Shown here: positions 1 through 18,942 of the stretch, one piece after another
How positions within the stretch are numbered: the first letter of the stretch is position 1
Layout of the letters: each line of letters begins with the position of its first letter
IMG/VR virus record: IMGVR_UViG_3300010151_000160
Span: 1-24,136 of that record
Source: a virus
DNA length: 24,136 nucleotides
Direction: 5' to 3' (one strand)
Program-made: the position numbers and the translations under genes
Notes under the pieces: generated by a model
What the model saw: only the letters and a program-made list of their open reading frames with translations
The model's database searches: none
Told to the model about the DNA's origin: nothing

Positions 1-105
1 ATTCCAGATATTGAAAAAGAAAATTTTTATAAAAGAAATTATGAACATATTAAAAAGTATGCTAAAGAAAAAGACATAGTGGAGTATGACGATAGAAAAC
101 TCTAA
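1..105 (+). CDS. C-terminal end of an unidentified protein (truncated by window start)
   Basis: Frame 1 is open from the first base to a TAA at 103-105 and encodes the last 34 residues of a protein. The tail is lysine- and glutamate-rich and probably helical, with many aromatic residues and the ending EYDDRKL. It overlaps the queE start by 20 bases, as expected for translationally coupled phage genes, so it is probably part of the same operon. The tail does not look like the end of QueD, the one preQ0-pathway enzyme missing here, but too little is visible to assign a family. That it is a real gene rests on the open frame and the tight overlap. Confidence 0.55.
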   Translation: MPDIEKENFYKRNYEHIKKYAKEKDIVEYDDRKL

Positions 106-844
106 AGTAACTCTTCCTATAAACGAGGTTTATTCTTGTTTACAAGGTGAGGGTAAGTTACTTGGTATACCACATTTATTAATTAGAGTTACAGGTTGTA
201 GATTACGATGTCAATTTACCAATTCATTTTGTGATACACCATACAGTTCTTGGAAACCAGAAAAAGGTAAATATGGTTATGAAGATATTCATGATTTTTA
301 TATGAAACATAAACACATTAAACATACTATGATAACTGGTGGAGGCCCTACTATACATTCTAATTTGTTAAAAGAATTATGTAAGATAGGAAAATTTTAT
401 AATCATTATATCACAATAGAAACAGAAGGTAGTGAATTTGTAGAAACACACGCCGATATGATTTCACTATCATCAAAGCTGTCTAACTCTACACCAGTTC
501 CAGGAACTTGGATGCCGTATCTTAATAGAGAAGTTACAGAAAGTGATAAAAAGAAACACGAGAAGTGGCGTAAAAATTATGATGCTATGAAAAAACTTAT
601 AGAGTATCATCCAGACTACCAATTAAAACCTGTTATATCAAATGAAAATGATTTACAAGAAGTAAAAGAGTTACAAAAAATATTAAATATACCAAATGAT
701 AAAGTATGGTTGATGCCCGAAGGATTAGTTGAAGAACAATTAAATGAAAGACGAAGATGGTTGATGGATTTGTGCACAGAACAAGGTTATAATTTTACAG
801 ATAGATTACATATAATAGCTTATGGAGATAAACGAGGAGTATAA
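86..844 (+). CDS. queE: 7-carboxy-7-deazaguanine synthase-like radical SAM enzyme (QueE)
   Basis: QueE converts 6-carboxytetrahydropterin to 7-carboxy-7-deazaguanine, the ring contraction on the way to preQ0. The 252-residue protein has the family layout: an N-terminal QGEG (20-23), then IRVTGC with the cluster cysteines C38, C42 and C49, the sequence [11 protein letters not shown]-binding TGGGP (84-88), an ISLSSKL segment, and a C-terminal [16 protein letters not shown] that matches the usual RlH...gnkRGv ending. Two motifs deviate: cysteine spacing is CX3CX6C instead of CX3CX2C, and the usual GGEP is GGGP. Altered cysteine spacing is known in some QueE enzymes, so activity is plausible. The ATG lies four bases after a GGAG-type ribosome site and overlaps the upstream gene; folE follows after one base. 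Confidence 0.9.
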
Positions 845-845
845 A

Positions 846-1478
846 ATGAGTAAGTTAAAACATGCTAATGGTAATAAACCATTAACAGCTGATGAAAAAT
901 TAAATATGATTAGAGAAGCGGCTGAACATTATGGTCGTTATATGACATCACTTGGGTTTGATTGGAAGAACGATCCAAATTCATCAGATACACCTATGAG
1001 AGTAGCTAAGGCTTTTGTTAATGATTTAGCAGAAGGTGTTTATAGTGAACCACCTAAGATTACAGCATTTGATAACATAGATGGTTATGATGGTATTGTG
1101 TTTCAAGGTAATATTACATTACATTCATTTTGTTCACATCATCATTTACCTTTTGTTGGTAATGCTCATGTAGCTTATTTACCTACACCTGAAGGTAAGG
1201 TGATTGGACTTAGTAAGTTAAATCGTATTGTTGAGTTCTATGCTCGTAGACCTCAAGTTCAAGAAAACTTAACAATGCAAATACACGACCATATTAATAA
1301 AGTGTGTGAAGGTAATATTGGGGTTGCTGTTATGATAGAAGCTAATCATATGTGTGCTTGTGTTCGTGGGGTTAAACATAATGCTACAATGAAAACAGCA
1401 AAGTTAAGTGGAGCATTTATGGAAAATGATAATGATGCTCGAGAAGAATTTTATGATTTTATAAGGGATTTAAAATGA
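846..1478 (+). CDS. folE: GTP cyclohydrolase I (FolE)
   Basis: FolE opens GTP to 7,8-dihydroneopterin triphosphate, the first step of folate and of 7-deazaguanine synthesis. The 210-residue protein has the zinc and catalytic cluster FCSHHHLPF (C96, H98, H99) and the second zinc cysteine in NHMCACVRG (C170). It also has the [11 protein letters not shown] substrate-binding segment near residue 47 and the [20 protein letters not shown] block. I chose the ATG at 846 rather than the in-frame ATG at 822. A clear CGAGGAG ribosome site lies just upstream of 846, and the 822 start would overlap queE and add eight non-conserved residues. Its stop overlaps the next start as ATGA. Placed between queE and dpdA/queC, it most likely supplies preQ0 precursor rather than folate. 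Unlike its neighbours, it keeps all metal ligands. Confidence 0.95.
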
Positions 1479-1687
1479 TAGGTTGGATAGGTTTAGGACT
1501 TTTAATGTCTGCGTATTTGTTATTGGTTACACCGTTAAAAAAATATTTTATTCCAATAGACACAATAGCAAGTGCTGTTTTGACAGTACATGCAACTACA
1601 ATTAATGATTATGTTTTTATTTGTGTTAATGGATGGATTACTTTAATACTAGCTTGGAAGTGGTATAAAGGAGAATACGGAGTATGA
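1475..1687 (+). CDS. Small integral membrane protein embedded in the 7-deazaguanine operon
   Basis: This 70-residue protein is almost entirely hydrophobic, with likely membrane helices at about residues 2-19, 27-42 and 45-63 and a positively charged LKKY turn between the first two. The opening [15 protein letters not shown] resembles small bacterial membrane proteins of the CBU_0592 type, but I recognise this only loosely. It overlaps folE and the transglycosylase gene by ATGA at each end, so it is a real coupled gene of the operon. Its function is unknown. It could assist precursor uptake, act as an accessory membrane protein, or simply travel with the cluster. It is much shorter than the known preQ0 transporters YhhQ and QueT. 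Confidence 0.75.
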
Positions 1688-2865
1688 CTTCAGGAAGTTT
1701 TATTTATTTTCCAAGTTTTTCTACCGCAGGTGTCGCACCTGAGTTGAAACAAAATTATAAATTTCCTAATGGACTTTCTTGTAGATTTTATTCTAAAGAA
1801 ATGAAACATATGAGATATCCATATTTTCTATTATCGGCTGGTGCTAATTATAGAAATAAAACAGCTCGTAAATCTTTTGGTTTATCAGAAGATGTATTAG
1901 TTGTAGGAGATAGTGGTGGGTTTCAACTTAAAATGGGTACTCTACAATGGAAACCTGAATTAAGAGAAGAAATTTTAAGATGGTTAGAAGGTAATTCAGA
2001 TATAGCTATGAATCTTGATATACCTCCAGGTGGGAAAGTTTTTAAAGAGTATGATGAATGTTTGGATATGTCTATTAAGAATTTTGAATATTTTGAAAAA
2101 AATAGAGAAGCTGATAATGTTGATTTTATAAATATATTACAAGCTGGGTTTGATAGTAGAACTAAAGATTGGTATGATGGAGTAAAGGGATTTAAATTTG
2201 ATGGTTGGTCTATAGGGGGATGTCAGGGTCAAAAAATTTCAAGTATGTTATATGCAGTTGCAATTTTATTAGATGGTAAGGAACATTTAAATCCAGATAA
2301 TAAATGGTTACACATTTTAGGAACAGCAAAGATTTTTGATTTCTTTATGTTAGAACAATTACAGAAATCTTTTAATGAGGTAGGAAGTAATTTTAGAGTT
2401 ACTACCGATAGTTCTTCACCAGATTATGCGGTAGTTTTTGGTGGATATTATTTGGATTACTCATTAAAGAAAATGTCAATTGAGAGTGTTAATTTTCCCA
2501 AACGAGAAAATATTTTTAACAATGATTTACCTCTACCTAAAGTAACTAATTTTGATAATTTGTTAGAAGGTAGTGTTACCTATAAAGATGTATATGAATA
2601 TAATAGAAATAGTTTTGTAGGTATGTCAACACACAATTTATATGTTCTTGTAGAATGTATTGATAGGATAAAAGAAATTATGTCTATGCATGATGACCTC
2701 GTACACCAGGTTGTATCAGAAGAAAAATTTAGATTGTTAAGTTCAATAGATGAGATGGTAAAGTCAGATAATCCAATGGATGTATATTATAAGTACGAAC
2801 CTTTATATCGTAAACTTAGTAATCCAAACAAAGAAAATAAACCAATAATAAATAAATTTTTTTAA
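1684..2865 (+). CDS. dpdA: TGT-like DNA 7-deazaguanine transglycosylase (DpdA family)
   Basis: Tail end of the pathway: enzymes of this family exchange guanine for a 7-deazaguanine base, in tRNA (TGT) or in DNA (DpdA). The 393-residue sequence has the TGT signature GDSGGFQ (75-81), with D76 the expected acid/base residue. It also has LDIPPGG (111-117), GWSIGGCQGQ (174-183, the substrate-binding glycine loop), and TTDSSSPDYA (240-249), with D242 the likely nucleophile. STHNLYVL (315-322) matches the TGT zinc-His region. The usual CXCXXC zinc cysteines are absent; only scattered cysteines (C33, C126, C180, C325) exist. Company with folE, queE and queC in a phage genome favours DNA modification over tRNA modification, following phage DpdA precedents. 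The start overlaps the upstream stop (ATGA). The substrate base is inferred to be preQ0. Confidence 0.85.
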   Translation: MTSGSFIYFPSFSTAGVAPELKQNYKFPNGLSCRFYSKEMKHMRYPYFLLSAGANYRNKTARKSFGLSEDVLVVGDSGGFQLKMGTLQWKPELREEILRWLEGNSDIAMNLDIPPGGKVFKEYDECLDMSIKNFEYFEKNREADNVDFINILQAGFDSRTKDWYDGVKGFKFDGWSIGGCQGQKISSMLYAVAILLDGKEHLNPDNKWLHILGTAKIFDFFMLEQLQKSFNEVGSNFRVTTDSSSPDYAVVFGGYYLDYSLKKMSIESVNFPKRENIFNNDLPLPKVTNFDNLLEGSVTYKDVYEYNRNSFVGMSTHNLYVLVECIDRIKEIMSMHDDLVHQVVSEEKFRLLSSIDEMVKSDNPMDVYYKYEPLYRKLSNPNKENKPIINKFF

Positions 2866-2878
2866 AGGAAAAATAAAA

Positions 2879-3676
2879 ATGAAAAAACAAGCAGTATTAT
2901 CTTTAAGTGGTGGTATGGATAGTTCAACCGTATTACTACATTTATTAGCAACTGATTACGAAGTAACTGCAGTTAGTTTTGATTATGGACAAAAACATAA
3001 TGTTGAATTGGAACGAGCAAAGGAACTTATTAAATACTTACATGAACATGATTTGAGTGTCCGACATCATGTTATTAAATTTGATGGACTACAAGGATTG
3101 TTAGATTCTAATTTAGTACAAGGTGGAGATGATGTACCTGAAGGTCATTATGAACAAGAAAATATGAAAGACACCGTAGTACCGAATAGAAATAAAATGA
3201 TGAATTCAGTTATTCAAGCAGTAGCTCTTTCAATAGCAAATACAAAGGATACAGAAGTAATTATCGCTATGGGTATTCACGCAGGTGACCATGAGATATA
3301 TCCTGATTGTCGTCCAGAGTTTAGAAATGCGGATTTCGAAGCATTTCAAATAGGTAATTGGGATTCAGAAAGAGTTTCAGTTTATACACCATATTTGGAT
3401 ACGGATAAGTATGGGATATTACAAAGTGGTGAATCTTGTTGTGATACATTAAATATAAATTTTGATGAAGTTTATAAGAGAACTAATACTTCCTACAAAC
3501 CTACACAAGAAGGTTATTCTGATTATAAGTCAGCTTCTTCTGTAGAGAGAATAGAAGCCTTTATTAAGTTAGGAAGAAAAGATCCTGTACAATATGCAGA
3601 TGACTCAGGTAAAGTTGAATGGGAAGTTGCTCGTAACCATGTTGAAAAAGTTTTGGAGGATTATACAAATGAGTAA
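2879..3676 (+). CDS. queC: 7-cyano-7-deazaguanine (preQ0) synthase-like protein (QueC)
   Basis: QueC uses ATP and ammonia to turn 7-carboxy-7-deazaguanine into preQ0 by way of the amide. The 265-residue protein has the PP-loop SGGMDS (10-15), the conserved VPNRN (101-105), GIHAGDHEIYPDCRPEF (132-148) and the C-terminal ERIEAF helix. The zinc site that normally reads SCY...CGxCxxC before that helix is replaced. By alignment to the family pattern the four ligand positions are S205, D215, S218 and S221, with spacing kept, so this is substitution and not a frameshift. Whether the fold is stable without zinc, or the chemistry stops at the amide, cannot be told from sequence. A good AAAGGAA ribosome site precedes the start. 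Confidence 0.9.
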   Translation: MKKQAVLSLSGGMDSSTVLLHLLATDYEVTAVSFDYGQKHNVELERAKELIKYLHEHDLSVRHHVIKFDGLQGLLDSNLVQGGDDVPEGHYEQENMKDTVVPNRNKMMNSVIQAVALSIANTKDTEVIIAMGIHAGDHEIYPDCRPEFRNADFEAFQIGNWDSERVSVYTPYLDTDKYGILQSGESCCDTLNINFDEVYKRTNTSYKPTQEGYSDYKSASSVERIEAFIKLGRKDPVQYADDSGKVEWEVARNHVEKVLEDYTNE

Positions 3677-4046
3677 ATATGAATTAATACATTATCCTGA
3701 AGTAGTAGACGCTTGTGATGAGATAGCTAAATGGGTTGTAGATTCTGGTATAGAATTTAGAGGAATATGGGGACCTCCGAGAGGCGGATTAATTCCTGGA
3801 GTTATTCTATCACATAAATTAGGATTGAAACTTTTTGATGAACCAAGAGTAAGACCTTTATTGGTAGTTGATGATATAGCGGATACAGGACAGACATTAA
3901 ATAGTTTTAGTAAATTAGATGATGTGTATATAGCTACTATACATTATCATGAACAATCATTATTTGTACCAGATAAATGGGTACTACCAAAAAAGGATAA
4001 GTGGATAGTTTATCCTTGGGAAAAAGAATACTGGGAGGGTGAATAA
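3669..4046 (+). CDS. PRPP-dependent (purine-type) phosphoribosyltransferase
   Basis: A 125-residue type I phosphoribosyltransferase. It has PPRGGLIPG (36-44), the PRPP-binding loop VVDDIADTGQTL (66-77) and a C-terminal WIVYPWE (112-118) typical of xanthine/hypoxanthine/guanine-type enzymes, where this aromatic region stacks on the purine. The enzyme would join a base to PRPP to make a nucleotide. I chose the ATG at 3669 because TTGGAGG lies ten bases upstream and the start overlaps the queC stop by eight bases; the in-frame ATG at 3594 would lie deep inside queC. In this operon it might recycle the guanine that the transglycosylase releases, or act on a deazaguanine base. Both are inferences, and the true substrate is unknown. 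It is short for the family, so a compact version. Confidence 0.85.
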   Translation: MSKYELIHYPEVVDACDEIAKWVVDSGIEFRGIWGPPRGGLIPGVILSHKLGLKLFDEPRVRPLLVVDDIADTGQTLNSFSKLDDVYIATIHYHEQSLFVPDKWVLPKKDKWIVYPWEKEYWEGE

Positions 4047-4816
4047 TGTTAGAACTAACAGTTGAACAATTACAAGAAAATTGGGATAAGTTAATACAAC
4101 TAATCGAAGATACATTTGAAGGAGAGAGAAAAGAAAAACTTCTAAAAATGTATGAACACTTTAAGGATAGAATGATGTTCGCACCAGCGAGTGGTCAAGA
4201 ACATTTTCATTTATGTACTCCTGGAGGATATGTTCAACATATTTTAAATATAGTACATTATAGTAAAGAGTTCCATAAGATATGGAAAGAAAATGGAGCA
4301 TCTGTAGATGATTATACTATGGAAGAACTTGTCTTTGCGGCGTTACATCATGACTTGGGTAAGGTTGGAGATTTGGAAAAAGATCATTATATACCAAACC
4401 CATCAGAGTGGCATAGAAAAAATCAAGGAAAGATTTATACAAACAATCCTGATTTGTTATTTATGACACCACCCGATAGAGGTATTTATATTTTAAATCA
4501 GTTTGGAATAAAGATGTCTGCTATAGAAATGTTAGGAATTAAATTAACAGATGGTATGTATGATGAGGGTAACGTACAATATCTTAAAACATATGCACCA
4601 GAAAAAAAGTTAAAATCAAATATGCCTCATATATTACATCAAGCTGATATGACTACTACTCGTATTGAATATGAGCAGTGGTTACGAGGTGATGATGATT
4701 TAATTCAGAATGAGGTTTTTAAACCTAAAGAAGAAATAAAAAAAGAACCAGAAAAACCAAAGGCATCTTCTACTGCTAAGGATTTATTCGATGAATTATT
4801 TGGAGAAACAAAATGA
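4046..4816 (+). CDS. HD-domain metal-dependent phosphohydrolase
   Basis: This 256-residue protein has an HD-domain arrangement: H65 in GGYVQHILNIV, H102-D103 in ALHHDLGKVGD (the HD dyad), and D201 in HQADMTTTRIEYEQW. Such domains bind one or two metals and hydrolyse phosphate esters, often of nucleotides. HD proteins near the late sigma gene are, from memory, common in T4-like marine phages. Residues about 225-242 form a charged, proline-rich linker (KEEIKKEPEKPKASS). It leads to a final short hydrophobic peptide, AKDLFDELFG (244-253), which resembles sliding-clamp-binding tails of T4-type replication proteins. The start overlaps the upstream TAA (TAATG) and the stop overlaps the next ATG. 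A role in nucleotide pool control fits the neighbouring phosphoribosyltransferase, but the substrate is unknown. Confidence 0.8.
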   Translation: MLELTVEQLQENWDKLIQLIEDTFEGERKEKLLKMYEHFKDRMMFAPASGQEHFHLCTPGGYVQHILNIVHYSKEFHKIWKENGASVDDYTMEELVFAALHHDLGKVGDLEKDHYIPNPSEWHRKNQGKIYTNNPDLLFMTPPDRGIYILNQFGIKMSAIEMLGIKLTDGMYDEGNVQYLKTYAPEKKLKSNMPHILHQADMTTTRIEYEQWLRGDDDLIQNEVFKPKEEIKKEPEKPKASSTAKDLFDELFGETK

Positions 4817-5079
4817 TATTTGAAATATTTTTAGGTACATTACTCGTTATAGAAGGGTATATAATTTGGAACTTAAATAGAAAGACAGAGATGTTAGAAA
4901 ATTGGGTTGAAGATTATACTGAAACTATACAAAGAGTTAATGATACAATTAAACAGATAGATTATAAGGGATACTTCGAAGAAGATGACGAAGTAGGAAC
5001 TATCTTTGAACAGATAAAAAATTCAGTTGATGAATTAAATAAATTTACAGAAGAAATAGAAAGTAAGGAAGAAAAATAA
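4813..5079 (+). CDS. Membrane-anchored coiled-coil protein of unknown function
   Basis: The 88-residue product begins with one hydrophobic segment (about residues 2-20, IFEIFLGTLLVIEGYIIWN). A long acidic helix with heptad-like spacing follows to the end and includes a conserved-looking GYFEEDDEVGTIFEQI stretch near residues 53-68. Similar small proteins with an acidic DDEVG core sit just before the late sigma gene in marine T4-like phages, as far as I recall, but their role is not known. It overlaps both neighbours (ATGA at the start, TAATG at the end), which supports real translation. The N-terminal helix could be a membrane anchor facing the cytoplasm. Confidence 0.7.
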   Translation: MIFEIFLGTLLVIEGYIIWNLNRKTEMLENWVEDYTETIQRVNDTIKQIDYKGYFEEDDEVGTIFEQIKNSVDELNKFTEEIESKEEK

Positions 5080-5816
5080 TGGGAGCACCTACCGCTAAAA
5101 AACCACGTAAGAAAAAAAGTAAAATATATTTTGGACAACCAGCTCAAGATGCTATTATAGCATATAACGCAACTGACGATCCATTAGAAAAAAATAACAT
5201 ATATGCTGAAAGTATTAATGCACCATTTGATAAATTGGCTGAGAATATAATTCATACATTTAAATTTTATTATTTTGATATACCTTTAGATGAAGTTAAG
5301 AATGAAGTTGTAGCGTTTATGGTAATGCAATTACCAAAGTACAATCCAGATAAAGGAAAAGCTTTTTCTTACTTTAGTATTGTTGCAAAGAATTGGTTGA
5401 TATTACATAATACCAATAACTATAAGAAGATGAAAAGTCATTCAGGTATAGAGACTTTGGATTATGGTAGAAATTTAGATGCAGAAGAAACTAATATTGA
5501 AACCAAAGAAATGTATTCTGAACTAGTAGATCAGATGATTCAGTTTTGGGAAAACAATATTCATAATCTTTTTCACCGTAAGAAAGATTTGAGTATAGCA
5601 TATTCTGTATTGGAATTATTTAAGAAGAGAGGTAATATTGAAAACTTCAATAAGAAAGCTCTCTATATTATGATACGAGAAATGACAGGAGCAAATACTC
5701 AGTTAATTACTCGTATAGTAAATCAAATGAAATCTCAATATGAGTCTATGTTACATCAATATCATAACGCTGGAAGTATAGATACTTGGGATACTGGTTC
5801 TATATTTGCTCAGTAA
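5079..5816 (+). CDS. Late-transcription sigma factor, T4 gp55-like
   Basis: A 245-residue divergent sigma factor. The block from about residue 50 to 120, with KYNPDKGKAFSYFSIVAKNWLI (87-108), matches the region 2 core of T4 gp55-type sigma factors, which recruits host RNA polymerase to late promoters. A lysine-rich N-terminus (KKPRKKKSK, 7-15) may contact nucleic acid. The last residues, DTGSIFAQ, end in a short hydrophobic peptide where gp55 proteins carry their sliding-clamp contact; that reading is tentative. It is the last gene of the operon and is followed directly by a strong terminator. It is longer than T4 gp55 (185 residues). No gp33 coactivator gene is seen in the window. Expressed with the modification genes, it would later switch on the structural genes downstream. 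Confidence 0.8.
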   Translation: MGAPTAKKPRKKKSKIYFGQPAQDAIIAYNATDDPLEKNNIYAESINAPFDKLAENIIHTFKFYYFDIPLDEVKNEVVAFMVMQLPKYNPDKGKAFSYFSIVAKNWLILHNTNNYKKMKSHSGIETLDYGRNLDAEETNIETKEMYSELVDQMIQFWENNIHNLFHRKKDLSIAYSVLELFKKRGNIENFNKKALYIMIREMTGANTQLITRIVNQMKSQYESMLHQYHNAGSIDTWDTGSIFAQ

Positions 5817-13055: not shown

Positions 13056-13441
13056 TGCCTTATACCCCGAAAGAAATTGAATTACTAGATTGGCAAAAAA
13101 AAGTAGAAGCTCTCGATAGACGAAATTATCTTAGAGAGGTTCGTAGACTTGCCATAAATGGAGTAGATATACCAGATGCAACTTTAAAAGCTGAGGGTAC
13201 TACAATGGAAATTAACAATAATTTTACAGACGACCAAGGTCGTTTAGTATTTTTTCAAGATCCAGATACTAAAGAAGTAATAAAGAATGTTGAATTTGAT
13301 AACTATAAGGTTGGTGAAAGAACAAAAAGATTGGTTGTAAGATATAAAGAAAATATTACTTATACGGATTATGAAGAGGTAGAAGGGTATGAGAAGGAGA
13401 GTTTTAAGGAATTGGTTCAATTGAAGAGTGAGTGGATTTAA
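13055..13441 (+). CDS. Small baseplate-module protein of unknown family
   Basis: A 128-residue charged protein. The N-terminal 30 residues are helical (ELLDWQKKVEALDRRNYLREVRRL), then beta-rich with GRLVFFQDPDTKEVIKNVEF and RLVVRYKENITYTDYEEVEG. It ends one base into the next start (TAATG), so its synthesis is coupled to the giant downstream protein, and the two may assemble together. No known family is recognised, and its role is inferred from position only. Confidence 0.65.
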   Translation: MPYTPKEIELLDWQKKVEALDRRNYLREVRRLAINGVDIPDATLKAEGTTMEINNNFTDDQGRLVFFQDPDTKEVIKNVEFDNYKVGERTKRLVVRYKENITYTDYEEVEGYEKESFKELVQLKSEWI

Positions 13442-16400
13442 TGTCATTTGGTGGTAAGATAGATAAATTTGGTGCAAGTACTTATGTGCATGTTACTGCT
13501 CGCGATAATCTTGATGAAGTATTATCAGTTGAGATGATACCTCAAGAGGAAAGTACTACGGAACTTAACCTCGCTCAAGATTTAGAAACTATCGGTCAAC
13601 CAGTAAATGTTGGTTCTCTTGAATATAATTTTATAGAACGGATAGGTGGTAGTTTAGATGTAACTAACTTTGATACAAAAGGGATGGTATGGACAGGTAG
13701 TTATTTTTCTCATGATGGTGATTTATACAAACAAGCAGCTGGTGATACAGACCAATCAAATCCAAATCCAACAGCTGATGCTCTTTTAGTAAGTGATACA
13801 CCTAGTTATGTTATAAAATATATTTCACCTTCAAGACGAGAACTTGTAATAGATAAAAAAAGTTTTATAAAAGAAGATTTATATAATGTACAATTTAATA
13901 ATTTAAAGTTTGATGATGACTCTATAAGTAGAATATGTAATGGTTATTATTTTGAAGGTTTTGATATTGATTCTAAAAAATTTATTAAAGACCCAACAAG
14001 AACAAGTGGTTATATTCCAAAAGATGTTTGGTTAGTTTTTACAGCAGGTGAGTCAATTAAAAATGTAGAGTTGGAAATACCTAATTTTTTCATTACAAGT
14101 ATGGAAGAAGTAGAGGAAATAACAACCACTACAGAACAGTTTAAAGAACCTAAACCAGAATACATTCCAAATATAGCTACAGATGGAACGGAATCAACTT
14201 ATGGTCAATGGGAATGGAAATTAACTGGGCCTCTAGCTAATTCATGGGTACACAAAATTCCTGGAATGGATCAAACGGGTGATGATAATAATGTATGGGG
14301 AACGGAATTAATACCAGGTTATCCTTTAGTTATTGCAACCGATCCTGGACATTTTGATAGTGGAACACCGTTGATTCCACAATATAGTTTAAGTCAAAAT
14401 CAAACAACATTAGCCAATGTAGCTAATCCAGCTTGGATAAAGGCTACAGTGATACAAAGTAATACGGGTGCACGCGATGATGATAGAAGTGATTTTAAAT
14501 TAGAATTTGAAGGACCATTTAAAACTTGGTTTCAAAAAAATGTAATAGGTAGAGGTTTCATTAGTAATGATTCAGATTGGGTAATGGCAAAATCAAATTT
14601 AAATGAATATGAATCAGACGCAAATATGATGTTGGCATTATATGATTCTGGTGGAGCTAATTCAATTGAAGGTTTAAGAGACTTTTTATCAACTTTTGTT
14701 TATGCAGGTGGAGCGGATGGTTTATATACAAGAACTGTAGAAACTATTGAAACAAAACTTGTGCCTACCTTTGAGTCTTTTAAAACAAAATTAACAGATG
14801 TGAAAGTACCAGTAGATGATAGTATAGACCATGTAGTTGAATTTGGATTTGAGACATCAGTAAGAGAGTATGCAACAGAAAACGGAATTGACTTAGATCA
14901 GATTATCGGTATTAATGATGATAGAATAAATGATACTGAATTAGCTGGTAAGTTATCGGGTGGTAATTTAATTTTAAATTTTACAAATGTTTTAAGAGAT
15001 GTTGCTAACTTAGATTTAGCAGTTATGGTTAATAAACAACCATATACTATAACGAATAAGATATTTGCAGAAAATAAAATTTTAGTAAAGTTACCAGTTG
15101 CGTTACCTAATTTTGTAGATTCAGAAGATGATGTTATATTTGTAAAGAAAGTTTTCTCATCTCAAAATTTTCCAATTAATTATGTAACCTATCAATCTCC
15201 ACCACCACCTACTAATATTTTAAGATTACCTACTGGAATTTATAAGTCAGGTAAGACTGGTACTATAAGACCACGTGCTTCTGAAGCATTAAGTTATGAA
15301 GATTTAATTTTTGAAAGTAGTTCTTTAGCTAAGGATATAGAAAGAGATATTGTAAGTGGTTCTTTCAATCAGGTTGAACTCAATATAGATTATTCTAATT
15401 ATGACAAGTTTATTAAGTTTAGTTCTGCTCGTAGAAGATTAGAAAATTTTAAAACTAAATTAGAAAAAATAGAAACATATACTGATAAGAGTGCTTCTAT
15501 TGCTGGAACATTATCTGATACTGGGTATTTAGGAAATGTATCAGGAACAGCAGTTACACACGGAGCACAAGACGCTAAGAATTTTGAAGTAGCTATTAAT
15601 GAAGTAGTAAATGGGTTTGATGGGTATGAGAGGTATTTGTATTTTGCAAGTTCATCTTATGAATCTGGAAGTGCAGGATTATATTATGACGCATCATGGC
15701 CTAAGACTAATTCTTCTAAACCATATACTTTACTTGATTCGGAAAATTCAACAGCTACTGATTGGTATAATGAACAACACACAAGTGCTTCAACTTATGA
15801 TACAGAAAATCTTGATAGATTAATATATCATTTACCAGACCACATAAGAGATGATTTGGGAAATCAAGATTTTGTTACATTTACGGATATGGTAGGACAA
15901 CACTTTGATAATTTAAAAAATTACATTGATAGATTTGGTCAAGTATATGAAACAGATGAAGCGTTGGATAAAGGATTATCAAAACAATTAGTTTATAATG
16001 TAGCGAAATCTTTTGGATGGACATTAGAAGATGGTTATGATTTAGTAAAGTTAGATAAATATCTTTTTGGTAAAACCGTAGATAGTAGTAATGACACAAC
16101 TTTATATGCTAGCTCTTCTTTACAAGATACTTCAAGAGAAATTTGGAAAAGAATTATCGCCAACATGCCTTATTTCTTAAAGTCAAGAGGTACAGTTGAT
16201 GCGTTAAAAGGATTAGTAAATTGTTATGGTATTCCATCTACAATATTAAGAGTTAGAGAATTTGGTGGACCTACTATTAATGATGTCGACCCAATATATG
16301 AAACAGGTCGTAGGTTTACTAAAGCGTTAGATTTTAAAACAGGTCAATTTGTATCTTCATCTTGGTCATCAACACTTGGGTTGGGTGGTACACAAGTTCC

Positions 16401-18942
16401 AAATAGTATGGAGTTTAGATTTAAAGCAGCATCAAGTTCTAATATGACTATAGTTCAAGGTGGTGGATTAGACGCTAATAGTTGGGGTGTACATTTAAGA
16501 GATAATGGTTCTGATGATAATTACGGTAGAATAGTATTTAGTTTGTCAGGTTCGGTAAATGATGATACTAAAATACCATCAACAGAAACTTATGGTGCAG
16601 AAGCAGTATCTACTTATGCTACAATGTCAAGTGATGCGTTACCTTTATATAATAATGATTATTGGTCAGTATTATTAAGACGCTCTCCAATATCAGGAGA
16701 AATGATTGGTGATGCTTTCGAGTCAGCGAGTTTTGGTGGAACGATTAGTGCAGCAGCTGGTACAAAAGATTTTCCATTTGCAGCTGCTGAGAATGGAGTA
16801 TTAACTATCAATAGTGCTTCGGCTTATACTAGAGCAGACTCTACATATTCATTAAAGTTATCACATACTGTTGGAACTACAACACTTGCAAATGATACAA
16901 AAGTTCCTGTGTCAACTTACACATATCCATATAGAAATCCAGGTGGTAATATTGGTTATTATGGAGCGGCTGGATATAGGGATGCACGATTTGTAACGGC
17001 ATCTTTTGGTCAAGAATTTAGTTTAGAAGTATGGGCTCGTACTGAAGAAAAGACAGCAACCGTAGCTCTATCAGCTCAAGAACTTGATAGTGTTGGTAAA
17101 GCAATTAATTGGAATACAAAACTTTATCCTAATGAAAGTACACCTAACGATTATGGTGTACATGAAATAAGAACAGGTGTAGGTACTACTTGGAAAAGAA
17201 TTAGTTTAAAATTTCCAATTAAACAAAGAGCAACTGCTAATTTATCACTTCAATTATCTGTATTAGCAAGAGGGACAGATGTAGATAACATAGAGTTAAA
17301 TCCGAATGTATATTTTGATGATGGTTCTTTGAAAAGAATTTTTCCTAATACGACAACTGGTATCGGATATACTTATGATTTAATTGTTAAACAATGGGAC
17401 GCTGGTAGAGATGCTATATTATATTCTGATGGAGTTTCAAAAGATTTTTTAACTTCAGTATCGAGTTCTTTTAATAATAAATTCGCAGAGACTGGTTCTA
17501 TGTATATTGGTGGATATACTACGAAAGATTTTGGTGGACAGTTTAGTGGTTCACTTATGGAATTTAGATTATGGAAATCAGCATTAGATGAAAAACCATT
17601 TAATGAGCATGTGGAGAATCCACAATCCTACGCAGGTAATTCTGTTAGTGCTTCTTATGAGGATATAGCTTTACGATATAGTTTTAATGAGGACAAAAAC
17701 CATTCAGATGTTAGTTCTGTAAGAGATACATCAACTGACCAATCTACACCTATTAATGGTATAGCTACAAGTTTTGCTGATGAGAATAATTATTCTGATG
17801 TGGTTGATAGAACCAAATTTCCATTACCTAAGATTGGTGGAATTAGAACAAACGCTAATAAGATAAGAATTGAAAAACCTGTATATCAGGAAAGAGTAGG
17901 ACAACAAATTCAATTAAGTCCTACAAATAGAATAGAGGAATCTTCTTATGATAGAAGTCCATTAGATTTAAATAGAGTAGGTGTTTATTTCTCACCTGTA
18001 GATGTTATCAATCAAGATATAATGGACCAAATGTCAGATTTTAATTTTGATAATTATCTCGGAGATAGTAGAGATGATAAAGAATATAGGTATAGAGGTT
18101 TAGAACAGATTAAAGAAGAATATTTTAAGAAATATACTGGTGCTAATAATTTTTATGATTATTTAAGAACATTAGAGTATTATGACCATTCTTTATTCAG
18201 ACAGTTAGAATCATTAATTCCTGCTCGTTCAAAAGCAGTTCTTGGTGTATTAGTAGAAAATAATATATTAGAGAGAAATAAACAACCAATAAATCATCCT
18301 ACTCAAGAAAATCCAATCTTTGAATCTACTGTATATTTTAACTCTGAAGATGGAGAAACAGTAAAACAATCTTCAGATAATCAATATTTTGAAGTAAGTC
18401 AAAGTGTTACACGATTAGATAAAGAAATGGATTCTGATTCCTCATATGGTTTACAAGGAGATAATCAGTATTTTGAAGATACAGTAGATACAGAACTAAG
18501 ATTACCTTCTCTTAGAGATTTAAATAGGGTAGATAAATTTGGACATTTTGGACGAAATTATACAACATCATCTATTTATATGGGAGGTCCAACCTCAGTT
18601 TTTACAGAATCTATAGCATATGTCGAGAATCAAAGAATTTCCGATTATAATAAAGAAAAACATTATATTTATAGTAGTAAGGCGAATTATGTAAACGGTA
18701 CAGCTTCAAGTGTAAGTTTTGTAACCTCAAGTTTTGAAAGATTAACCGAATACATATCAGCACAGAGAAGAATTAATTTTGAAGGTTGTAAGAATGATGT
18801 AAATTCAGCACCTTGGAGTATTGATGAGAATGGTGAAAAAGATTACAAACCAGTTAGTTTCATATTAACAAGTCCTACCAGATTGGCTGGAGATGCGAGA
18901 GATAGTGTGGTAATTAGAACTGAGTTTGATGTTGATGAATAA
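13441..18942 (+). CDS. Giant baseplate/tail protein with LamG-like and carbohydrate-binding-like domains
   Basis: A 1,833-residue protein, the largest in the window and placed where T4 has gp7, so probably a peripheral wedge or tail-fibre-attachment protein. In order: a beta-rich N-terminal half; a helical block at about 790-940 with LDRLIYHLPDHIRDD and IWKRIIANMPYFLKSRGTVD followed by LVNCYGIPSTILRVREFGG, resembling phage tail protein I/gp7-like segments; and a LamG-like sandwich beginning near 988 and resuming at about 1300-1400 (YTYDLIVKQWDAGRDAILYSDG, SGSLMEFRLWKSALDE). Between the halves lies a jelly-roll segment (about 1095-1290) of CBM-like character (YSLKL, FSLEVWART, TTWKRISLKFP, VYFDDGSLKR). 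A Ser-rich C-terminus contains DNQYFE twice. I chose the ATG at 13441, which overlaps the upstream TAA, over an upstream GTG at 13432. The sugar-binding folds suggest host contact. Confidence 0.75.
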   Translation: MSFGGKIDKFGASTYVHVTARDNLDEVLSVEMIPQEESTTELNLAQDLETIGQPVNVGSLEYNFIERIGGSLDVTNFDTKGMVWTGSYFSHDGDLYKQAAGDTDQSNPNPTADALLVSDTPSYVIKYISPSRRELVIDKKSFIKEDLYNVQFNNLKFDDDSISRICNGYYFEGFDIDSKKFIKDPTRTSGYIPKDVWLVFTAGESIKNVELEIPNFFITSMEEVEEITTTTEQFKEPKPEYIPNIATDGTESTYGQWEWKLTGPLANSWVHKIPGMDQTGDDNNVWGTELIPGYPLVIATDPGHFDSGTPLIPQYSLSQNQTTLANVANPAWIKATVIQSNTGARDDDRSDFKLEFEGPFKTWFQKNVIGRGFISNDSDWVMAKSNLNEYESDANMMLALYDSGGANSIEGLRDFLSTFVYAGGADGLYTRTVETIETKLVPTFESFKTKLTDVKVPVDDSIDHVVEFGFETSVREYATENGIDLDQIIGINDDRINDTELAGKLSGGNLILNFTNVLRDVANLDLAVMVNKQPYTITNKIFAENKILVKLPVALPNFVDSEDDVIFVKKVFSSQNFPINYVTYQSPPPPTNILRLPTGIYKSGKTGTIRPRASEALSYEDLIFESSSLAKDIERDIVSGSFNQVELNIDYSNYDKFIKFSSARRRLENFKTKLEKIETYTDKSASIAGTLSDTGYLGNVSGTAVTHGAQDAKNFEVAINEVVNGFDGYERYLYFASSSYESGSAGLYYDASWPKTNSSKPYTLLDSENSTATDWYNEQHTSASTYDTENLDRLIYHLPDHIRDDLGNQDFVTFTDMVGQHFDNLKNYIDRFGQVYETDEALDKGLSKQLVYNVAKSFGWTLEDGYDLVKLDKYLFGKTVDSSNDTTLYASSSLQDTSREIWKRIIANMPYFLKSRGTVDALKGLVNCYGIPSTILRVREFGGPTINDVDPIYETGRRFTKALDFKTGQFVSSSWSSTLGLGGTQVPNSMEFRFKAASSSNMTIVQGGGLDANSWGVHLRDNGSDDNYGRIVFSLSGSVNDDTKIPSTETYGAEAVSTYATMSSDALPLYNNDYWSVLLRRSPISGEMIGDAFESASFGGTISAAAGTKDFPFAAAENGVLTINSASAYTRADSTYSLKLSHTVGTTTLANDTKVPVSTYTYPYRNPGGNIGYYGAAGYRDARFVTASFGQEFSLEVWARTEEKTATVALSAQELDSVGKAINWNTKLYPNESTPNDYGVHEIRTGVGTTWKRISLKFPIKQRATANLSLQLSVLARGTDVDNIELNPNVYFDDGSLKRIFPNTTTGIGYTYDLIVKQWDAGRDAILYSDGVSKDFLTSVSSSFNNKFAETGSMYIGGYTTKDFGGQFSGSLMEFRLWKSALDEKPFNEHVENPQSYAGNSVSASYEDIALRYSFNEDKNHSDVSSVRDTSTDQSTPINGIATSFADENNYSDVVDRTKFPLPKIGGIRTNANKIRIEKPVYQERVGQQIQLSPTNRIEESSYDRSPLDLNRVGVYFSPVDVINQDIMDQMSDFNFDNYLGDSRDDKEYRYRGLEQIKEEYFKKYTGANNFYDYLRTLEYYDHSLFRQLESLIPARSKAVLGVLVENNILERNKQPINHPTQENPIFESTVYFNSEDGETVKQSSDNQYFEVSQSVTRLDKEMDSDSSYGLQGDNQYFEDTVDTELRLPSLRDLNRVDKFGHFGRNYTTSSIYMGGPTSVFTESIAYVENQRISDYNKEKHYIYSSKANYVNGTASSVSFVTSSFERLTEYISAQRRINFEGCKNDVNSAPWSIDENGEKDYKPVSFILTSPTRLAGDARDSVVIRTEFDVDE

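Follow-up and report, generated by a model that had tools for sequence, protein, structure and literature searches.

Which base does a phage carry in its DNA when a single operon encodes both 7-deazaguanine synthesis and a guanine transglycosylase? The question is raised by IMG/VR virus record IMGVR_UViG_3300010151_000160, from a marine virus of bacteria, whose entire 24,136 bases were analysed (hereafter, the window). An earlier note had reported queE, folE, a gene resembling tRNA-guanine transglycosylase (TGT) or DpdA, and queC standing together at positions 86 to 3676, and had read them as a 7-deazaguanine DNA modification cassette. All four frames were found open at these positions, tightly packed and matching their families. 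The extent given was too short, as the 3' end of queD (1 to 105), a 70-residue open reading frame (ORF; 1475 to 1687) and a phosphoribosyltransferase gene (3669 to 4046) had been left out. The cassette reading itself is strengthened, with QueD also present at the contig edge and a gene set matching that of phages with 2'-deoxy-7-cyano-7-deazaguanosine (dPreQ0) in their DNA (PMC6884629), the base in the window phage being a prediction. We consider it highly probable that the operon carries out the post-replicative replacement of guanine by preQ0 (7-cyano-7-deazaguanine) in phage DNA, with guanine salvage.

The entire operon lies on the plus strand, its adjacent genes overlapping by 1 to 23 bases or lying 13 bases apart. 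The first frame of the window (1 to 105) encodes 34 residues and a stop, identical (34/34) to the C-terminus of QueD from a sibling contig (L107), whose full-length protein matches PTPS (PF01242; E = 2e-26). Thus, all four preQ0 genes are present, with queD cut by the contig edge. There follow queE (86 to 844), for the radical S-adenosylmethionine (SAM) enzyme 7-carboxy-7-deazaguanine synthase, and folE (822 to 1478), for GTP cyclohydrolase I. QueE matched the QueE-like radical SAM family phrog_2076 at E = 3e-43, and Radical_SAM PF04055 at only 22.5 bits; its three radical-SAM cysteines are arranged as C-x3-C-x6-C (spacing of 6 to 8 in 104 of 108 copies), and FolE (PF01227; E = 1e-48) keeps the zinc ligands C104, H107 and C178. 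Beyond the 70-residue ORF lie the genes for a 393-residue guanine transglycosylase (1684 to 2865), QueC (2879 to 3676) and a 125-residue xanthine-guanine-type phosphoribosyltransferase (3669 to 4046). This gene set, in largely conserved order, was seen again in dozens of IMG/VR contigs, so that its grouping in the window is not a matter of chance.

FolE, QueD, QueE, QueC and DpdA constitute the minimal set for dPreQ0 (PMC6884629, Hutinet et al. 2019). In Escherichia phage CAjan and Mycobacterium phage Rosebush this set gives dPreQ0 at about 30% of G; dPreQ0 is lost on dpdA inactivation, and the modified DNA is resistant to restriction (PMC6884629). The window holds the full set, QueD by its 3' end, in a single tight operon, within which none of ArcS, Gat or QueF was recognised. 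Taken together, the published minimal set and the lack of a recognised ArcS, Gat or QueF make dPreQ0 the best prediction for the base in the window phage DNA, which it would probably shield from bacterial enzymes.

Against Pfam TGT (PF01702), the transglycosylase scored 24.9 bits (E = 1e-5), slightly under the curated cut-off of 26.3 bits; most phage DpdAs are missed by PF01702 alone, so that lack of a match to it means little. A scan of viral contigs with the protein as a single sequence gave no matches, whereas an alignment query did. D76, D112 and D242 are the same in all 114 homologues, with Q153 and G178 conserved in nearly all of them; we take the three aspartates to be the counterparts, by motif alignment, of D102, D156 and D280 of the Zymomonas TGT. 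The TGT zinc cysteines (CxCxxC-H site) are absent from the window protein and present in some distant phage relatives. The structure-based search proposed in the earlier note recovered the TGT fold: a model built with 35 homologues (predicted local distance difference test score of 91) formed a TGT barrel with TGTs as its first matches (Foldseek E = 6e-9; all 13 matches with E ≤ 0.001 are TGTs; VIA Z of 24.6 over 312 residues). Neither phmmer nor hmmsearch against PDB sequences returned a significant match, the predicted structure alone doing so. The same note had held that a place inside the tRNA TGTs would speak against DNA modification; in our tree, a branch with 100/100 support separates those enzymes from the window protein. 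Judged from its profile, model and tree, the protein is a DpdA-type enzyme. By profile, it is nearest to the PA5oct type of jumbo phages (8e-54), followed by the GR7B type (3e-21), DpdA2 of Vibrio phage nt-1 (3e-14), tRNA TGT (7e-10) and the small DpdA of the immuto type (3e-7). We had initially assumed subfamily DpdA2, an assignment that was downgraded once the profile comparison put the PA5oct and GR7B types nearer; nt-1 DpdA2 matches the window profile at E = 5e-11 and forms a long branch in the tree. The window protein may belong to DpdA2 or to a separate subfamily.

The QueC of the window (PF06508; E = 4e-40) is 57 to 63% identical to that of phage immuto, and both lack the four zinc cysteines. 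The positions of E. coli C188, C197, C200 and C203 are occupied by S, D, S and S in 83/83 phage copies of the window type and by four cysteines in 28/28 QueCs of the canonical group; three more copies grouped with the window type by BLAST (L173 among them) keep the cysteines, and fall outside the zinc-free clade in the tree. The canonical C(x)8CxxCxxC motif, regarded as a hallmark of QueC (PMC13329287), is therefore not found in the window protein. By contrast, the zinc-free alignment shows no variation in the motifs SGGxDS, YxQxHxxE, VPxRN and YPDC, as defined by a survey of the family from 2026 (PMC13329287), nor in Y36, R104, Y141 and Y206, the counterparts of the E. coli residues Y35, R99, Y131 and Y189 that are essential by mutagenesis (PMC13329287). 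Solved QueC structures were the first matches of the window QueC model. The clade is also cellular, with members in Fastidiosibacteraceae, in Pirellulaceae and related planctomycetes, and in marine Thermoplasmatota. In five bacterial genomes (a Thiotrichales bacterium, Facilibium, Cysteiniphilum and two planctomycetes; completeness not stated), the zinc-free QueC was the sole PF06508 protein found, and TGT, QueA and QueF are encoded as well. Since QueF requires preQ0, the zinc-free enzyme must make it in those genomes, and the clade apparently retains QueC function. In the QueC tree, the window protein groups with copies from phages and Fastidiosibacteraceae at 100/100 support, and the topology fits a single loss of the zinc site (77/88 support, 83% of bootstrap trees; one long-branch row is probably not a true QueC). 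In marine Thermoplasmatota (Poseidoniales and Thalassarchaeaceae; L273 to L282), the zinc-free QueC lies in a FolE-QueE-QueC-QueD cluster, so that the chromosome itself seems to encode zinc-free preQ0 synthesis in these archaea. These enzymes of phages, marine archaea, planctomycetes and gammaproteobacteria would go undetected under annotation rules that require the zinc motif.

The last cassette gene suggests a step that has been missing from such systems, namely the fate of the expelled guanine. A profile of its product matched purine and xanthine-guanine phosphoribosyltransferases in the PDB (best E = 8e-25; E. coli xanthine-guanine phosphoribosyltransferase, 3e-13), and the phosphoribosyl pyrophosphate loop and the WIxxPWE purine pocket are kept. 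In a survey with queries drawn from cassettes, and on contigs that are related to one another, 69 of 77 newly fetched viral phosphoribosyltransferase loci lay within reach of one or more cassette genes; on contigs of at least 15 kb, at least two cassette genes accompanied the enzyme in 32/34 loci, against 8/61 for a thyA control. The simplest reading is that the enzyme perhaps salvages the guanine released by DpdA. A partial literature search, at the level of titles and abstracts, yielded no paper addressing this link.

In the proposed mechanism, FolE would convert GTP to dihydroneopterin triphosphate, QueD and QueE would lead from there to 7-carboxy-7-deazaguanine, and the zinc-free QueC would produce preQ0. 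Asp242 of the DpdA-type enzyme would then attack the sugar of a DNA guanosine, expelling guanine and allowing insertion of preQ0, which in DNA would block restriction enzymes that read guanine N7. The released guanine would probably be turned into GMP by the phosphoribosyltransferase, a reaction that would both pull the exchange forward and refill the GTP pool. The zinc-free QueC chemistry and the salvage step are predicted from sequence.

Close relatives of the cassette (FolE 78 to 88% identical) share mostly constant QueD, QueE, FolE, DpdA and 3' flank, and differ in a tailoring slot, for which we observed (i) a canonical QueC between QueE and FolE (19 loci), (ii) the zinc-free QueC after DpdA (the window and L126), (iii) a second, divergent QueC-like protein of a third type, with all zinc cysteines, in the QueC slot (L128:9654-10421 and L129:9630-10397), (iv) a methyltransferase without QueC (L024, L025, L130 and L131), and (v) p115, a 115-residue protein of phrog_17812 (unknown function), with a GT4-like glycosyltransferase and without QueC (L105, L106, L108, L120, L121 and L177). 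In L024 (5365-6207), as in L130 and L131, the SAM methyltransferase lies between DpdA and the phosphoribosyltransferase and no QueC was found; a methylated deazaguanine is possible in these siblings. The p115-glycosyltransferase pair was located beside DpdA, with QueC missing, at L105:7825-9142, L120:5824-7563, L177:9630-10971, L003:7527-9050 and L516:5257-6669, and it also adjoins DpdA in PA5oct and Acidovorax phage ACP17. Across all loci with the window DpdA type, p115 and QueC are mutually exclusive (52 versus 33), so that the slot seems to give different bases; phages with the pair may carry a different, perhaps sugar-bearing, deazaguanine. A relationship of p115 to QueD as a paralogue was considered, and the profile comparison was not convincing. 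p115 is possibly the decarboxylase DpdL reported by Cui et al. 2023. Phages that differ by this swap in otherwise comparable operons form a ready-made panel in which to look for new DNA bases. With somewhat less than even confidence, we put forward a wider scheme: a closed cycle in which a zinc-independent QueC, the DpdA swap and a dedicated phosphoribosyltransferase would make the exchange effectively one-way, and in which an exchangeable QueC slot would lead relatives to write different bases, preQ0 in those with QueC and probably a sugar-bearing deazaguanine in those with the p115-glycosyltransferase pair.

Several points weigh against replacement by preQ0. The catalytic core of queD lies beyond the contig, its 3' end being all that is seen; the p-value of the phosphoribosyltransferase survey overstates independence, owing to the cassette-derived queries and related contigs; and the nearest characterised DpdA, that of nt-1, is very distant and its phage DNA has dPreQ0 at about 0.1% of G, so that the modified fraction in the window phage is unpredictable. 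Furthermore, as the contig is a 24-kb fragment, a tailoring enzyme encoded elsewhere could convert preQ0 to another base. An altered QueC or such an off-contig enzyme would make the product another 7-deazaguanine, whether 2'-deoxy-7-amido-7-deazaguanosine (dADG), 2'-deoxy-7-aminomethyl-7-deazaguanosine (dPreQ1), 2'-deoxyarchaeosine (dG+) or a hypermodified base, as could be expected from the swapping of tailoring genes among sibling phages and from nt-1 DNA, which holds dADG and dG+ besides dPreQ0, at low level (PMC6884629). We regard this as unlikely, though to be taken seriously, given that the window's operon contains no recognised tailoring gene and that the zinc-free QueCs of cells supply pathways that depend on QueF and require the nitrile preQ0.

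A role for the genes in queuosine or archaeosine of the infected cell's tRNA, with the TGT-like protein acting as a tRNA-guanine transglycosylase, would explain why FolE, QueD, QueE and QueC are common to tRNA pathways and why the transglycosylase has the TGT fold. It is very improbable in view of the position of that protein outside the tRNA TGTs (100/100), its missing zinc cysteines, and the occurrence of its relatives in phage loci, many with cassette genes; moreover, QueA, QueG and QueH were not found in the viruses analysed by PMC6884629. As to the phosphoribosyltransferase, whose substrate is predicted rather than proven, it might instead use preQ0 or some other base to form a nucleotide for polymerisation as a modified dGTP, a route proposed for Campylobacter phages (PMC6884629), or serve general phage purine metabolism. 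The DpdA with an intact active site in the same operon, the conserved guanine-pocket motif and the association of the gene with cassettes, not with phage nucleotide metabolism at large, render this rather unlikely, and favour the salvage of guanine released by a preQ0 exchange.

Downstream, the cassette is bordered by a protein that weakly resembles metal-dependent phosphohydrolase phrogs (4046 to 4816, plus strand), followed by a short ORF and by a conserved flanking gene (5079 to 5816, plus strand) that, by eye and without a family match, is possibly a gp55-like sigma factor. Tiny membrane-type ORFs occur within the operon, both in the window (1475 to 1687, probably a membrane protein) and in L107 (8049-8267). 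The latter, a 73-residue PnuC-like ORF that relatives carry in a slot other than that of the window ORF, weakly matches NMN_transporter (PF04973; E = 1e-5), with a resemblance to the C-terminal region of PnuC that may point to the transport of bases or nucleosides; the window ORF is like it in being small, of membrane type and encoded within the operon. The genome had also been called T4-like. Baseplate-wedge families are present in the window and support a contractile-tailed phage, while T4-like is a stronger claim and is unproved; the T4 late-promoter motif TATAAATA was no more frequent than expected by chance. Elsewhere, a structural-looking protein of 1836 residues (13432 to 18942) had zero PHROG matches, and an ORF cut at the contig end (23094 to 24134), with a signal-peptide-like start and, by eye, a secreted cohesin-like look, matched no Pfam or PHROG family.

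Among known systems, CAjan and Rosebush have the same minimal set of enzymes, for which dPreQ0 formation has been demonstrated (PMC6884629), but their DpdA is of another subfamily, and the window profile found no match in CAjan (Rosebush was not searched). The cluster of the contractile-tailed Vibrio phage nt-1 (QueD, ArcS-like, FolE, DpdA2 and QueC) shares the FolE, DpdA, QueC order with the window and has profile-level transglycosylase homology, the two proteins being only about 24% alike; unlike the window, it carries a QueC of the canonical zinc type, together with an adjacent DUF5591-like (ArcS-like) gene. Its VPFG_00169 was rejected as a QueE candidate, its relative in L173 matching DUF5591. 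The jumbo phage PA5oct, with the nearest transglycosylase family by profile, has a phosphoribosyltransferase and QueE nearby, whereas no QueC was found and a glycosyltransferase and p115 are present instead. Flavobacterium phage immuto provides the nearest homologues from an isolate for QueC (57%, likewise zinc-free) and QueE (45%), along with a FolE 54% alike, and its cluster also holds a phosphoribosyltransferase; it differs from the window by a small DpdA of 264 residues from another subfamily, and by QueF and a formyltransferase. Overall, the system as a whole is of a known kind, and what is new in it is a QueC without the zinc site, the association with a phosphoribosyltransferase and the mutually exclusive occupancy of the tailoring slot.

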